DNA of 32,027 bases from a virus, in IMG/VR virus record IMGVR_UViG_3300005264_000033, positions 1 to 32,027 of that record; one strand, given 5' to 3'. How positions within the stretch are numbered: position 1 is the stretch's first letter; each line of letters starts with the position of its first letter. Shown one piece after another: positions 12,490 through 31,827 of this stretch. Position numbers and translations under genes: made by a program. The notes below the pieces were generated by a model. The model worked only from the letters and a program-made list of their open reading frames with translations, was not told where the DNA came from and searched no databases.

Positions 12490-12517
12490 AAAAAAAGAGG
12501 TTCACACCTCTTTTTTT
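12490..12517. terminator. bidirectional terminator hairpin upstream of methylase gene
   Basis: A 12-bp stem made of AAAAAAAGAGGT (12490-12501) and its complement (12506-12517) around the loop TCAC. A runs on one side and T runs on the other allow termination in both directions. The stop codon of the 40-aa gene (12502-12504) lies in the loop. Confidence 0.8.
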
Positions 12518-20908: not shown

Positions 20909-21094
20909 CTAATTTTTTAAAATAATTCTTTTAATTTTTAAATACGTGTCCAGTCTCGGAATGCTACGACAAGCGAAAAATCTATTAACAGCTTGTCGGT
21001 GTAGTCCTGTTAAGTCAGCAATTTCTTGCTGACTTATTTTTTTTTGTACTGCTGTTTTTTTAAGCAGCAGTACTTTTTGTTTCCAATCTTCCAT
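20909..21094 (-). CDS. small HTH regulator (Xre/Cro-like)
   Basis: A 61-aa protein that is essentially one helix-turn-helix domain: KISQQEIADLTGLHRQAVNR (about 19-38) has the helix-turn-recognition helix layout of Cro/C1 proteins, with Gln-Gln-Glu-Ile-Ala-Asp at the start of helix 2 and an Arg/Asn-containing recognition helix. It is the second gene behind promoter repeat B. Such a protein could bind one of the palindromes in the two promoter repeats and set their activity, but this is not shown by the sequence. Confidence 0.8.
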   Translation of the reverse strand: MEDWKQKVLLLKKTAVQKKISQQEIADLTGLHRQAVNRFFACRSIPRLDTYLKIKRIILKN

Positions 21095-25216: not shown

Positions 25217-25248
25217 TAAAAGTAATAATTTACCATTAACTAACCAAA
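25217..25248 (-). promoter_or_regulatory. promoter of rha leader transcript
   Basis: On the minus strand TTTG (25248-25245), a 20-base spacer, then TACTTTTA (25224-25217), one base from TAnnTTTG. It overlaps the end of ninG and would start a leader of about 75 bases that contains the hairpin. Confidence 0.55.
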
Positions 25249-25890
25249 TAAAATTTTATGAATTTCATTTCTTTTGTAGTCAATTCCTGATAATATTTCT
25301 TTATGTATTTTTTTTGCTTTTATAATTAATTCTTTTAATTCTTGAATGTCTAATTTTTTATGTGTCTCAGCAGGTAAATTCTCAACAAATTCAAGATAAT
25401 CTCTACCATAACGGTTAATTAATCCTTTCTGGTATCCTTTAATGTTACCGGACAAGTGATTGTTACAGATGGAGCATTGTTTGTGAATGTTATGTAAATT
25501 ATACCTCAAATCCGCATGACCACCAACCGAATGGTAATGACCTGCGTGGAATTGTCTCCCTGTACCAGAATATCCGCAACTTATACATGAGCAATCAATA
25601 TCTATCAATCTTACAATTGCGTTTATTTCGGTTTGTAATTTTCTTTGGTAATAACTTTTGTTTTTTGCTTGTTCTTTTTGTTTTTTCGCTTCCTGCTTAT
25701 ATTTTTTAATAGTTTTTTTATGAGCCGAAATTCTGTATTTTTCAAGTATTTTTCCACCCTCATCTGAATTTAAAAGCCATTCGGTAAGGCAATCCTGACA
25801 AAGTCCGTATCGAACAATATATTTTTGTTCTCCACAGCCAGACCCTGTTGCTTTTCCAGTTCCTTTGCATTTTTTTTTCTTAACTTTCAT
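25240..25890 (-). CDS. ninG: NinG (Rap)-like recombination nuclease
   Basis: A 216-aa protein matching lambda NinG across its length: an N-terminal Cys-containing part (CKGTGKATGSGCG, CQDC), a Lys-rich helix (residues about 57-85), the Cys pair 'CSCISCGYSG', then 'QFHAGHYHSVGGHADLRYN' and 'NIHKQCSICNNHLSGN', which supply the His and Cys residues of the metal-binding fold, and 'GYQKGLINRYG'. NinG/Rap acts on recombination intermediates such as D-loops and Holliday junctions. Its neighbours (NinB-like, helicase) fit recombination-replication work. Confidence 0.9.
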   Translation of the reverse strand: MKVKKKKCKGTGKATGSGCGEQKYIVRYGLCQDCLTEWLLNSDEGGKILEKYRISAHKKTIKKYKQEAKKQKEQAKNKSYYQRKLQTEINAIVRLIDIDCSCISCGYSGTGRQFHAGHYHSVGGHADLRYNLHNIHKQCSICNNHLSGNIKGYQKGLINRYGRDYLEFVENLPAETHKKLDIQELKELIIKAKKIHKEILSGIDYKRNEIHKILFG

Positions 25891-26167
25891 TTAAGTAAGA
25901 TATTATTTTATTCAAGTTCTTCAAGTAGCCTCTTTCGTTTACAACTAAAATATTAATCGTGTCGAAATAAGATACTTCATTTTTTCCCTCTAATTTAACA
26001 ATAATTTGATAATATTTAAAAATTTGACCTAATAATTTAGCAGCTTTTTTTCTTGCGTCATTGTTTTTCGTTAATTCAAAATCGGTTAATTCTTTAATTA
26101 AATTAATTTTTGTTAATTCTACATTTTTAGGGTTTGGCTGCCGTTTTATTATCTCAATTATGCTCAT
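25880..26167 (-). CDS. hypothetical protein (95 aa) between ninB-like and ninG
   Basis: A basic, helical protein (NVELTKINLIKELTDFELTK, NDARKKAAKLLGQIFKYYQI) overlapping both neighbours: 14 bases with the NinB-like gene and 11 with ninG. Such overlaps point to translational coupling. No motif or family is recognised. It may be a small accessory factor for the recombination proteins, judging only by position. Confidence 0.75.
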   Translation of the reverse strand: MSIIEIIKRQPNPKNVELTKINLIKELTDFELTKNNDARKKAAKLLGQIFKYYQIIVKLEGKNEVSYFDTINILVVNERGYLKNLNKIISYLNES

Positions 26168-26579
26168 AATAGTTTATTAGACTTTCGATGCTTGGAAAAG
26201 GTAAATATATTTCTTTTTTAGCAAAAAACTTATTAATAATGTCGATTAATTTGTTTATTTTTTCGGTGTCGAGTTTTGTTGTACTATCTATCCCGAACAT
26301 TGTATTTATTATTGGTTTAATAATAAATTCTTTAACAATTAAAGAACTGTAATATACTTCTAAATCTATATCTTTAAGTCCAGAATATCGGAATGTTAAA
26401 CCTAAATTATTTAACTCGTTTGCGATAAACTCAAACCACTTGTGTAATGCCTTATTTTGCGTCAAAGTCCTTTTTTTCGCAATTCTTGTCAATTTTACTT
26501 TACATTTTTGTCCTTTGTAAAAATTAACTTGGTCGTTAAATAGACTTAAATGTGTGTTATTTGATAAATCAAAAATCAT
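26154..26579 (-). CDS. NinB-like recombination protein
   Basis: A 141-aa protein with the signature 'RTLTQNKALHKWFEFIANEL' (about residues 38-57), the 'R...QN..LH' core of NinB/Orf-type recombination mediators, then a central acidic region and 'LPFPSIESLINYYE' at the end. NinB (Orf) binds single-stranded DNA and helps annealing proteins replace SSB. The neighbouring ninG and the Rad52-like and SSB genes support the call. The match lies in the core motif, so the family is likely but not certain. Confidence 0.65.
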   Translation of the reverse strand: MIFDLSNNTHLSLFNDQVNFYKGQKCKVKLTRIAKKRTLTQNKALHKWFEFIANELNNLGLTFRYSGLKDIDLEVYYSSLIVKEFIIKPIINTMFGIDSTTKLDTEKINKLIDIINKFFAKKEIYLPFPSIESLINYYEHN

Positions 26580-26873: not shown

Positions 26874-28208
26874 TTAATATAATTGTGCGCTTTCATCCGT
26901 AAATGGAATGTCAAAAATATTGTTATTATTGGAGTAGAATTTACTCCAGTCATCGGCTCGATAAATTTCGGCTGCCCCAATTGCGCCGTTTCTGTTTTTA
27001 GCAATTATTAATTCTATAAGATTTTTTTGATTAATATCACATTCAGCTCCCTGATAATCGTACCTATGAACAAAAATTACTATATCGGCATCTTGTTCTA
27101 ATGCTCCGCTGTCTCGTAAGTCTGATAAATCAGGTTTCACACTTTGAGTTCGCTTTAATTGCGAAAGAGCAACAACAGGGCAATTAATTTTCTTAGCTAA
27201 TGATTTTAAATTTTTAGAGATGTGCATTACCTTTTCATTAGTAGTACCTTCGACAGAGTAATTAATTATCTGTAAGTAATCAATTACTATCAAATCAATC
27301 TTTTTCTTTTTGTTTTCAATTATTGCGATATTTCTAATATCTTCAACTGTCAAGTCAGAGTCATCATTAATTTGGAAATTCGTATTTTTAAAAACAGGGA
27401 CAGTGTTATCTATTAATGTCCAATCATTTACATTTAAACTATTTGACTGTAACTTTTGACTATTTATCCCAGTTTCCAGCGAAATTAATCTGTCAGCAAT
27501 TCTATTTTTATTCATTTCTAAGGAAAAGAAGAGAATGTTTTTTTGCTCGATTATTGATGCGTATTTGGCTGTGAATAAAGAAACGGCAGTTTTACCCATT
27601 GATGGTCGCCCTGCTAACAAAATTAAATCCCCATTTTGCCAGCCGCTTGTCATCTCATTAAGTGGGTCAAACCCTGTTTTAATTCCTATAATATTATTGT
27701 AGTCGGTGTTTATATTTGAGATTTCCTTTAATCTTTCTTGGATAACATCGTACATATTGTACAAATCATTATCTTTTAGAGTAAACAAATCCTCGATCTC
27801 TCCGTTAAATTTATTAAATATATCAAAAATATCTTTATCAGATTTTAAAGATTTTAAGCCAGAATTGAACAAAAGATATAATTGCCTTTTCAGAAAAAAT
27901 TCTTTAAGTATTCTAACGTAAGTCATATAATTAGTACCGCTTGCTATTTCGGATGTTAATGTACTAATATAATATGCACCTCCTGCGCTTGCAAGTTGCT
28001 TACTGTTTTGCATATAGCTTACAACTGTAAACATATCTATATCTTTGCCCTCAATATCCATTTTTTTTGCAGCAATAAATATTGCTTTATTCACATCAAA
28101 ATAAAAATATCGAGGTTGTATGTTTAGAAGTATTTCATCTTGGTATTCTTTAAAACTTAGTAAGATACCTAAAATTGATTTTTCTATTTTTTCATCGTAA
28201 AAATTCAT
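26874..28208 (-). CDS. dnaB: replicative DNA helicase, DnaB family
   Basis: A 444-aa protein with the DnaB N-terminal helical domain (starting 'EKIEKSILGILLSF') and a RecA-like C-terminal domain: Walker A GRPSMGKT (200-207), 'FFSLEM' with the catalytic Glu231, Walker B LIVIDYLQ (306-313), 'ALSQLKR' (347-353) and the arginine-finger region 'LRDSGALEQDADIV'. It unwinds the phage fork as a hexamer, likely loaded by the initiator encoded upstream. The ATG is 5 bases after TAATTTTG (28220-28213), perhaps a leaderless promoter. Confidence 0.95.
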   Translation of the reverse strand: MNFYDEKIEKSILGILLSFKEYQDEILLNIQPRYFYFDVNKAIFIAAKKMDIEGKDIDMFTVVSYMQNSKQLASAGGAYYISTLTSEIASGTNYMTYVRILKEFFLKRQLYLLFNSGLKSLKSDKDIFDIFNKFNGEIEDLFTLKDNDLYNMYDVIQERLKEISNINTDYNNIIGIKTGFDPLNEMTSGWQNGDLILLAGRPSMGKTAVSLFTAKYASIIEQKNILFFSLEMNKNRIADRLISLETGINSQKLQSNSLNVNDWTLIDNTVPVFKNTNFQINDDSDLTVEDIRNIAIIENKKKKIDLIVIDYLQIINYSVEGTTNEKVMHISKNLKSLAKKINCPVVALSQLKRTQSVKPDLSDLRDSGALEQDADIVIFVHRYDYQGAECDINQKNLIELIIAKNRNGAIGAAEIYRADDWSKFYSNNNNIFDIPFTDESAQLY

Positions 28209-29687: not shown

Positions 29688-29839
29688 GGTACAGTGCTTA
29701 ATAATGTTTTTGCTCTCACATCGTGTTTTTTTACTATCTATACATTTGTCTGTCAAGTCATGAATTTAATTGTATGTTTTCTAGAAAAAACTTTTCACTA
29801 AATTATTTTTTAAATTTTAAGCAAAAAAAACAACAACAA

Positions 29840-30020: not shown

Positions 30021-30052
30021 CAAATATACTAAATTATTCTTTAAGAATACAA
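30021..30052 (-). promoter_or_regulatory. autoregulated-looking promoter with palindrome TATTCTT-T-AAGAATA
   Basis: TTG (30052-30050), a 21-base spacer and TATATTTG (30028-30021) on the minus strand, ending 5 bases before the ATG at 30016. A perfect 15-base palindrome (30035-30049) fills the spacer, where a bound dimer would block polymerase. Confidence 0.5.
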
Positions 30053-30847
30053 TTATTTTATAGTTAAATTTTCTGAAAGATATATTTCTATTTTTTGTGG
30101 ACGTGTACAAAATTCAATTGTTAGGTACTTATATTTATTTTTTTTATGGTAATCTGAGCTATACATATTTATTGCAGCCTTAGCAATATCAGCTGGTGTG
30201 TATCCATTTTTTATCGCTCGTTTAAAGTTTGTCAAACCTGTCCTGTTTATCCGAAAATTGCGCTTAAATTTAGTATTTAGCCAATTAACGAATAATAAAA
30301 AGTCTTTAATATGTTTATCTTTAAGTAATATTCTTGCCTCTTTTCTATCTAAATAAGAATATTCTTTAATAAATTCGTCAAGTTCATTTTTCTGAACTTG
30401 ACTTATATTATTATTTATTATTATATCTTTATAATTATAATTATTATTATTGTGTAAAGTTTCTTTACTACCCCCTTTAAATTTCTTTACTACCCCCTGT
30501 AAAGTTTCTTTACTACCCTCGTTAAGTTTTTTTACCACCTCCGTCTCGGCATTTTCGCTTAAAAGTTCTTCTATTTTATCTAAATTAGCATAATAACTAT
30601 TAGATGTATTAATAGCTGTACTTATTTCTTTTATTATTAATCCTTTGTCTATAAGGTTATTTATTTTCTTTATTAATGTTGGCTTAGAAACTAAAACCCT
30701 CTTACTAATATAAGATAATGAGCCATAAAATCGACTGTTTCCGTCCTGACTAAACCCATAAATTAGAGCAAAAATAAATAGTTCAGTAATATCTGTTATC
30801 CCTAACTCGTATTGCCATCCTTGTATCGTTATATATTCTTTTTTCAT
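30053..30847 (-). CDS. phage replication initiator with internal origin
   Basis: A 264-aa protein. The first ~80 residues are a winged-helix DNA-binding domain ('YISKRVLVSKPTLIKKINNLIDKGLIIKE', about 46-74). Residues 104-132 are a repetitive linker (VVKKLNE, GSKETLQ, GVVKKFKG, GSKETLH) encoded by the iterons, followed by an Asn/Tyr-rich stretch (133-148) and a C-terminal domain 'NTKFKRNFRINRTGLTNFKRAIKNGYTPADIAKAAI' of the kind found at the end of phage replication proteins. It should bind the iterons and load DnaB. It is preceded by a structured leader at 30858-30899. Confidence 0.8.
   Translation of the reverse strand: MKKEYITIQGWQYELGITDITELFIFALIYGFSQDGNSRFYGSLSYISKRVLVSKPTLIKKINNLIDKGLIIKEISTAINTSNSYYANLDKIEELLSENAETEVVKKLNEGSKETLQGVVKKFKGGSKETLHNNNNYNYKDIIINNNISQVQKNELDEFIKEYSYLDRKEARILLKDKHIKDFLLFVNWLNTKFKRNFRINRTGLTNFKRAIKNGYTPADIAKAAINMYSSDYHKKNKYKYLTIEFCTRPQKIEIYLSENLTIK
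30377..30542 (-). other. putative replication origin (iterons, A/T block, palindrome)
   Basis: Four direct repeats of 22-23 bp lie at 30453-30475, 30476-30497, 30498-30520 and 30521-30542; the minus-strand core is GTAGTAAAGAAACTTTA. Beside them 30403-30451 is pure A/T except one C, and then comes a 10-bp-arm palindrome (GTCAAGTTCA 30377-30386 with TGAACTTGAC 30393-30402). This is the same order as in the lambda origin, inside the initiator gene. Confidence 0.7.
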
Positions 30848-31016: not shown

Positions 31017-31442
31017 CTAAGAAATCAATATATTTTTTTCTTTATCTTTTTTCTTGACTTTCTCTTTATCGAAATTTAGTCGGATATTTTTAATATATTG
31101 CTCTTTTGCATTTTTTTCTTTTTTTTGTTTCTCTTTTATTAATTTTTTAGAAATAAATAAAATATTGTTGTATGTGTTATAGACAACAGGGTCTTTAATT
31201 TCTAACCAATCCGGCATCATTCTCTTTACCCTAGATGCGGTTGCATGGTCTCTATCTACAACTGCACCTGCCTTTGTCGTTGTATAGTTACAATCTTGCA
31301 TTAATAGATACATTACAACATTTCTAACAGCAACTAATTCTTGTTTTTTATTTCTTCCCGAAAAATCTTTTAATTTCAAGCCGCTATACATTTCAGCAGC
31401 TTGAATAATTATCTGTTTTTTTCTTTCGTTGTTCATATTCAT
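31017..31442 (-). CDS. DnaA domain-IV-like DNA-binding protein
   Basis: ATG at 31442 (MNMNNERKKQ) is preferred to one at 31463 inside the SSB gene. The 141-aa product contains a stand-alone copy of the DnaA C-terminal DNA-binding domain: 'ELVAVRNVVMYLLMQDCNYT' followed by the signature 'VVDRDHATASRVKRMM' (compare DnaA GGRDHTTVLHA). There is no AAA+ domain. It ends in a Lys-rich tail. It may bind DnaA boxes to direct or block host initiation or act at the phage origin. It follows SSB by 5 bases. Confidence 0.8.
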   Translation of the reverse strand: MNMNNERKKQIIIQAAEMYSGLKLKDFSGRNKKQELVAVRNVVMYLLMQDCNYTTTKAGAVVDRDHATASRVKRMMPDWLEIKDPVVYNTYNNILFISKKLIKEKQKKEKNAKEQYIKNIRLNFDKEKVKKKDKEKNILIS

Positions 31443-31446
31443 TTTT

Positions 31447-31827
31447 TTAAAAAGGTAAATCATTCGTTTGTTCAGTCTCTACATCACGATTATCTTTATT
31501 ATCTACGTCTGTTCTTTTCTGCCCTAACATTTCAATATTATTAGCTATAATTTGCGTAAAATACTTAGTAATTCCGTCTTTTTCGTAATTTTCATATTTT
31601 ATTTTACCCTCAATGTATAGTTTATCCCCTTTTTTTACGTACTTTTCTGCGATTTCCGCTAATTTACCGAACATGATTATGCTGTGCCATTCCGTTACAG
31701 TTTTTCGCTCTCCTGACTTGTCTTTGTAGGTTTCGGAAGTAGCTAAACTTAATTTAACAATAGTTGTATCTTTTTTTAAAACTTCTGGGTCTTTCCCAAC
31801 ATTTCCTATTAAAATTGCTTTGTTCAT
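31447..31827 (-). CDS. ssb: single-stranded DNA-binding protein
   Basis: A 126-aa SSB: OB-fold start 'MNKAILIGNVGKDPEVLKKD', strand 'VTEWHSIIMFGKLAEIAEKY' (about residues 44-63), 'KKGDKLYIEGKIKYENYEKD', then a disordered acidic linker and the conserved tip 'TNDLPF' for partner binding. It protects single-stranded DNA and recruits recombination and replication proteins. It lies between the 154-aa gene and the DnaA-like gene, in the recombination operon. Confidence 0.95.
   Translation of the reverse strand: MNKAILIGNVGKDPEVLKKDTTIVKLSLATSETYKDKSGERKTVTEWHSIIMFGKLAEIAEKYVKKGDKLYIEGKIKYENYEKDGITKYFTQIIANNIEMLGQKRTDVDNKDNRDVETEQTNDLPF

Follow-up and report, generated by a model that had tools for sequence, protein, structure and literature searches.

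Positions 30377-30542 of the analysed DNA very likely form a theta-type replication origin that lies in the linker-coding part of the gene for its own initiator, with iterons that the initiator would bind, an A/T block that would be melted and a helicase that would be delivered to the opened DNA. The analysis covered the whole stretch of virus record IMGVR_UViG_3300005264_000033 (32,027 bp; hereafter 'the window'). Because an exact direct repeat of 68 bp is present at both ends of this contig (1-68 and 31960-32027), the genome is probably circular and complete, with a length of 31,959 bp.

The initiator gene (30053-30847, - strand; 264 codons) encodes a protein of 264 aa. The preliminary description had called this protein a winged-helix initiator, and profile searches agreed: the protein matched Pfam HTH_36 with an E-value of 4e-7 and 30.1 bits (i.e. 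above the curated cut-off of 25), as well as PHROG replication initiation families with E-values of 3e-10 to 4e-9. The AlphaFold model (mean pLDDT 77) consists of an N-terminal winged helix, a disordered linker and a C-terminal helical domain. The recognition helix (residues 55-67; 30647-30685, - strand) is part of the winged helix, where the pLDDT block means are 94-97. Linker codons 101-148 (30404-30547, - strand) lie over the iterons and the A/T block; pLDDT was essentially below 50 from residue 110, and residues 110-148, under the origin, were without confident structure. The C-terminal domain (residues 148-257; 30077-30406, - strand) weakly resembles Phg_2220_C/TIGR02220 (E = 0.007 for TIGR02220, under the family cut-off) and presumably contacts a helicase or loader. 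The closest fold neighbours of the N domain in the PDB were MarR/ArsR-type repressors, tied with the solved Rep/initiator structures 4pql, 5kbj and 4pt7 (Z 8.3-8.6), and a PDB sequence search retrieved chiefly generic winged helices.

Inside the initiator gene, four 15-bp dyads (gene nucleotides 309-395) were followed by a 49-bp A/T block (397-445) and then by a hairpin with 10-bp arms (446-471). Hence, the four 22-23 bp repeats, the 49-base A/T block with one C and the palindrome with 10-bp arms that had been reported within this gene were all recovered at their positions, on the - strand. The tandem iterons directly follow the winged-helix codons, and the four direct repeats span 30453-30539 (- strand) at a spacing of 22/23/22. 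Each repeat is a hyphenated dyad around AAA, of the type GTAAAG-AAA-CTTTAC. Iteron 1 (GTAAAAAAACTTAAC; 30521-30535) has two mismatches and iteron 3 (GTAAAGAAATTTAAA; 30476-30490) has three, while iterons 2 and 4 (both GTAAAGAAACTTTAC; 30499-30513 and 30454-30468) are perfect dyads; all four are on the - strand. The TRF score of the array was 121-139, compared to 66 for the runner-up array in the window. When the whole window was dinucleotide-shuffled 12 times, no chain exceeded two such repeats, against four in the real sequence. Outside the array, the window contained no copy of the dyad with fewer than three mismatches, also not upstream of the initiator gene.

No other stretch of the genome with at most one G/C is as long as the A/T block (30403-30451; the next-longest is 35), and a similar tract occupies the same place in relatives. 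In 100 shuffles the longest A/T run had a mean of 38 and a maximum of 50, and the length of 49 bp alone is thus only marginal. We presume that this block is the duplex unwinding element. The adjoining hairpin (30377-30402) is a perfect inverted repeat with arms GTCAAGTTCA and TGAACTTGAC and a 6-nt loop, GAAAAA. As single-stranded DNA it folds with -9.1 kcal/mol (z = -6.7), and it lies at about the same place as the TAAA stem-loops of relatives.

Some other repeats were observed elsewhere in the window. Perfect hairpins with arms of 11-12 bp occur at 12490-12517, 21011-21036 and 1335-1360, the first of which looks like a transcription terminator. Downstream of the initiator, a 17-bp direct repeat (ACTAAATTATTTTTTAA, 94%; 29797-29813 and 30028-30044) flanks a short HTH-like frame on the reverse strand, and the two copies are possible operators.

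The replication genes of the window include a phage-encoded DnaB-like replicative helicase (26874-28208, - strand; DnaB_C, E = 8e-76) and, in the same module upstream of the initiator, a single-strand binding protein (31447-31827, - strand; SSB, E = 1e-29). A 148-aa protein encoded immediately upstream of the initiator (31017-31463, - strand) comprises only domain IV, the DNA-binding domain, of DnaA and no ATPase (Bac_DnaA_C, E = 2e-8). DnaA boxes were considered as an origin element and rejected: 16 one-mismatch sites were found versus 9.8 expected, with none inside the origin. GC skew was uninformative on the start of replication, because almost all genes of the genome point in one direction. 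The window also encodes recombination genes that recall the nin and red regions of lambda, namely NinG-like (25240-25890), NinB/Orf-like (26154-26579) and Rad52-like (497-1066) genes.

Searching viral contigs directly with the window protein alone gave no relatives. Relatives were therefore collected by profile searches with the N domain, in virus contigs and in one-genome-per-species contigs. In total, 272 loci had a closed initiator ORF, of which 173 were distinct at <85% identity. We used 173 other ORFs of the same loci as controls, and 20 synonymous-codon shuffles as the null expectation. In-gene iterons exceeded all 20 shuffles in 149 of the 173 initiators, versus only six of the 173 control ORFs; a few relatives had no array (e.g. 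loci L114, L118 and L121). The arrays begin at gene nucleotides 258-363, with a spacing of mostly 22-24, and two thirds of the spacings are not divisible by three. The iterons of the relatives are dyads of about 6-AAA-6, in which symmetry and the A core are kept and the arms are highly variable (GTAAAG, GTGCAG, GTTGGA, GGGTCA, CCCGCA and others). An arm score of at least 6 was reached by 51% of the iteron copies, compared to 4% elsewhere in the same genes.

Distant named relatives are the Flavobacterium phages FCV-1 and FCL-2, the Bacteroides phages B40-8 and BF10P2, Parabacteroides phage PD491P1 and Riemerella phage PT03, and most of these have arrays of different sequence at the same gene position. 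More generally, the N domain has genuine sequence relatives in the HTH_36/Phg_2220_C replication proteins that phages of Bacteroidota and Firmicutes encode (e.g. B40-8, FCV-1), and these have the same in-gene iterons. They are annotated only as hypothetical or replication proteins, and each phage may have a different half-site. Within the family, the C-terminal domains are freely variable. In the Riemerella phages CRP19 (L008) and PT03 (L009), the C-terminal halves are near-identical and the N-terminal domains unrelated, with the junction in the linker; here the N domain and its repeats seem to have been exchanged as a unit.

The repeats might also be read at the protein level, as KETLxGG units of the linker, with the A/T block as its Asn/Tyr/Ile-rich coding sequence and no function in the DNA. 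The segment indeed codes for a low-confidence, presumably disordered linker, and such linkers accept repeats. However, the 22/23 spacing shifts the frame, such that iterons 1 and 3 encode V-V-K-K (VVKK) and iterons 2 and 4 encode S-K-E-T (SKET). Furthermore, the signal is lost in synonymous shuffles, and neither dyad symmetry nor co-variation with the recognition helix (see below) would make sense in a peptide. We regard a purely protein-level origin of the repeats as extremely improbable. Since the frame shifts while the DNA sequence is kept, the iterons are constrained as DNA rather than as peptide. As the linker peptide can vary freely, the DNA between two protein domains is able to carry an origin. 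That disordered linkers tolerate repeats of any kind could partly explain why the iterons are located there, though no such co-location was evident for the control genes.

The relatives also share the elements beyond the array. The 45 nt after the array were 80-88% A/T, versus 60-69% in the surrounding sequence, and the AT-richest 36-mer of the gene started after the array in 71% of the genes, where 9% would be expected. Perfect inverted repeats with arms of at least 8 within 110 nt downstream of the array were present in 50 of 152 genes; the same count gave zero in control segments upstream and two in segments further down, while block shuffles predict 4.6. The loop was TAAA in 28 of these 50 hairpins, which are centred near +42. 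The TAAA stem-loops occur in two reading frames, with different peptides, and their arms vary with compensation. They were seen 32-49 nt past the iteron array in, for example, L049, L074, L066 and L270. A role of the stem as RNA was considered and rejected: none of 21 mismatched pairs was G-T, which makes it more likely that the stem acts as DNA. In many such origins, the hairpin past the A/T block is a genuine element at the DNA level. A more tentative extension is that these initiators might make up a very large and overlooked class of in-gene phage origins, in which four residues of the recognition helix would reveal the iteron specificity, and that the third element of these origins, a DNA stem-loop with an invariant TAAA loop in about a fifth of the members, might be a functional module. 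Just as tentatively, this module, undescribed for lambda and RepA_N origins, might serve for instance as an entry hairpin for helicase or primase or as the site of a second protein.

Half-sites were taken from the DNA alone and then compared with the columns of the protein alignment. The strongest co-variation involved residues of the recognition helix: residue 56 with bases -4 and -3, residue 57 with base -1, residue 59 with base -5, and residue 60 with base -2. At base -4, P56 went with A in 46 of 46 cases, R56 with G in 23 of 23 and K56 with G in six of seven, while Q56 was ambiguous (C or A). At base -1, G57 went with C in 30 of 32 cases and T57 with a purine in 87 of 88. Likewise, I59 always went with T at base -5 (54/54) and R60 with C at base -2 (8/8). 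Residues 93-102 were excluded: their co-variation with the half-site is trivial, given that the codons of the iterons themselves are at or next to these positions.

To control for kinship, only phylogenetically independent pairs were used, on a tree built without the recognition helix. The best 15 of 438 residue-base tests then all fell within residues 50-62, with a best p of 2.8e-6 (about 0.001 after Bonferroni correction for the 438 tests). This tree-based test replaced a first test on far pairs, which was topped by the near-invariant columns G31 and A27, probably owing to a handful of outlier sequences; among the variable columns, residue 56 ranked first in that test. Rules fixed before the data were seen were then applied 31 times to 16 new initiators, with N domains 57-77% identical to the nearest training sequence, and gave the right base 30 times. 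In all, about 190 relatives entered the comparison. The window initiator, with P56, T57, I59 and K60, agrees with its own GTAAAG half-site. On the strength of the dyads, the residue-base co-variation and the success of the rules on held-out initiators, it is very probable that the encoded winged helix binds, as a dimer, the iterons within its own gene.

The co-variation proves recognition only; it indicates that the protein reads the iterons, and does not place the start of replication there. The dyads could also be operators, for instance autoregulatory ones, of a protein that mainly regulates transcription or blocks RNA polymerase, with replication starting elsewhere, as the MarR/ArsR-type fold neighbours of the N domain might suggest. 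In 149 of the 173 relatives, however, the sites are found 300-400 nt into the coding region, beside an A/T tract and not at a promoter. Outside the array the window has no copy of the dyad with fewer than three mismatches, upstream of the gene included, and both the replication families and the neighbouring SSB and DnaB genes favour an initiator. We therefore consider the operator explanation improbable.

If the segment is an origin, initiator dimers would bind each of the four A-centred dyads via the recognition helix of the N-terminal winged helix, a step for which the co-variation argues strongly. By analogy with lambda, pSK41 and SPP1, the assembled initiator complex would then strain and melt the adjoining 49-bp A/T block. 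Subsequently, the C-terminal domain may bring the DnaB-like helicase of the phage to the opened strands, either directly or via a loader.

The plan is that of lambda O and ori-lambda, where dyad iterons and an A/T tract lie inside the gene of a winged-helix initiator, as also in phage 21 and P22 gp18 (PMC5043065, PMC7466680). The lambda-like order noted earlier holds for the order of elements, the in-gene position and the A-core dyad iterons. Both genes have four in-gene dyad iterons whose centre is rich in A (spaced 20/24/23 in lambda, 22/23/22 in the window), at gene nucleotides 349-434 in O versus 309-395 in the window gene, an A/T tract directly after the array, and an N-terminal winged helix in the product. 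The same detector found in-gene repeats in lambda, P22 and six other O-type genes, and an A/T tract directly after the repeats in most, including lambda and P22. In contrast, the iteron arms differ, and the window phage has its own DnaB helicase, with no lambda P-type loader recognised beside the initiator. Pfam Phage_rep_O (PF04492) was absent among the matches of the window initiator up to E = 1, whereas lambda-type O scores 6e-36. The initiator thus appears to work like O from outside the O family proper.

Of the preliminary description, the lambda plan inside the initiator gene was supported, now with comparative evidence that the encoded winged helix reads the iterons; a possible independent instance in unrelated protein families was not supported. 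Both proteins match phrog_678 (window initiator 8e-8, lambda O 1.7e-35), and a profile-profile alignment of the N domains over the helix-turn-helix (hhalign) gave a probability of 77 and E = 2e-5, modest evidence from a single comparison. Convergent placement of the origin in a linker, which concerns ancestry and is compatible with origin function, would fit the missing Phage_rep_O match, the negligible direct sequence identity and the freely varying C-terminal domains. Against it stand the shared PHROG and profile alignment, the same iteron design at the same place in the gene, and the nearby DnaD_N and RepA_N-type folds. We rate convergence as rather unlikely; given the shared phrog_678 and the profile alignment, remote common descent with lambda O seems at least as likely as independence.

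Two other systems follow a similar plan. In SPP1, gp38 binds direct repeats within its own gene beside an A/T-rich unwinding element at oriL (PMC6316719); SPP1, by contrast, also possesses oriR as a second origin and has gp39 as a separate loader. In pSK41, the N-terminal 120 aa of Rep bind four Rep boxes central in rep, the ori-encoded linker is dispensable, the C domain is helical, and both domains are DnaD-like (PMC5703833). The window initiator shares the central in-gene boxes, the (here predicted) linker-encoded origin and the helical C domain, but is a phage rather than a plasmid initiator, and Pfam RepA_N was absent among its matches up to E = 1. The plan itself is already known from lambda O/ori-lambda, SPP1 gp38/oriL and pSK41 RepA_N, and it is present in most of the relatives examined; rarity was not supported. 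The new and testable part is the apparent residue-to-base code, in a class that is, judging from the loci collected, very large. In the open-access literature we found no paper on in-gene origins in Bacteroides phages, none on co-variation of iterons and recognition helices in phage initiators, and no description of the very large HTH_36 class with in-gene origins.

These results provide a predicted origin and initiator-site code for hundreds of uncultured phages in which the replication gene is annotated as 'hypothetical protein'. Sequence alone is then enough to locate origins and even to match them with their initiators. Vectors for cloning in Bacteroidota could be built on initiator-origin pairs matched by the code (e.g. 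R56 with G, R60 with C). Moreover, an old question becomes open to a structural test, namely whether a single ancestor gave rise to the initiators of the lambda O, DnaD and RepA_N types that have origins in their linkers.
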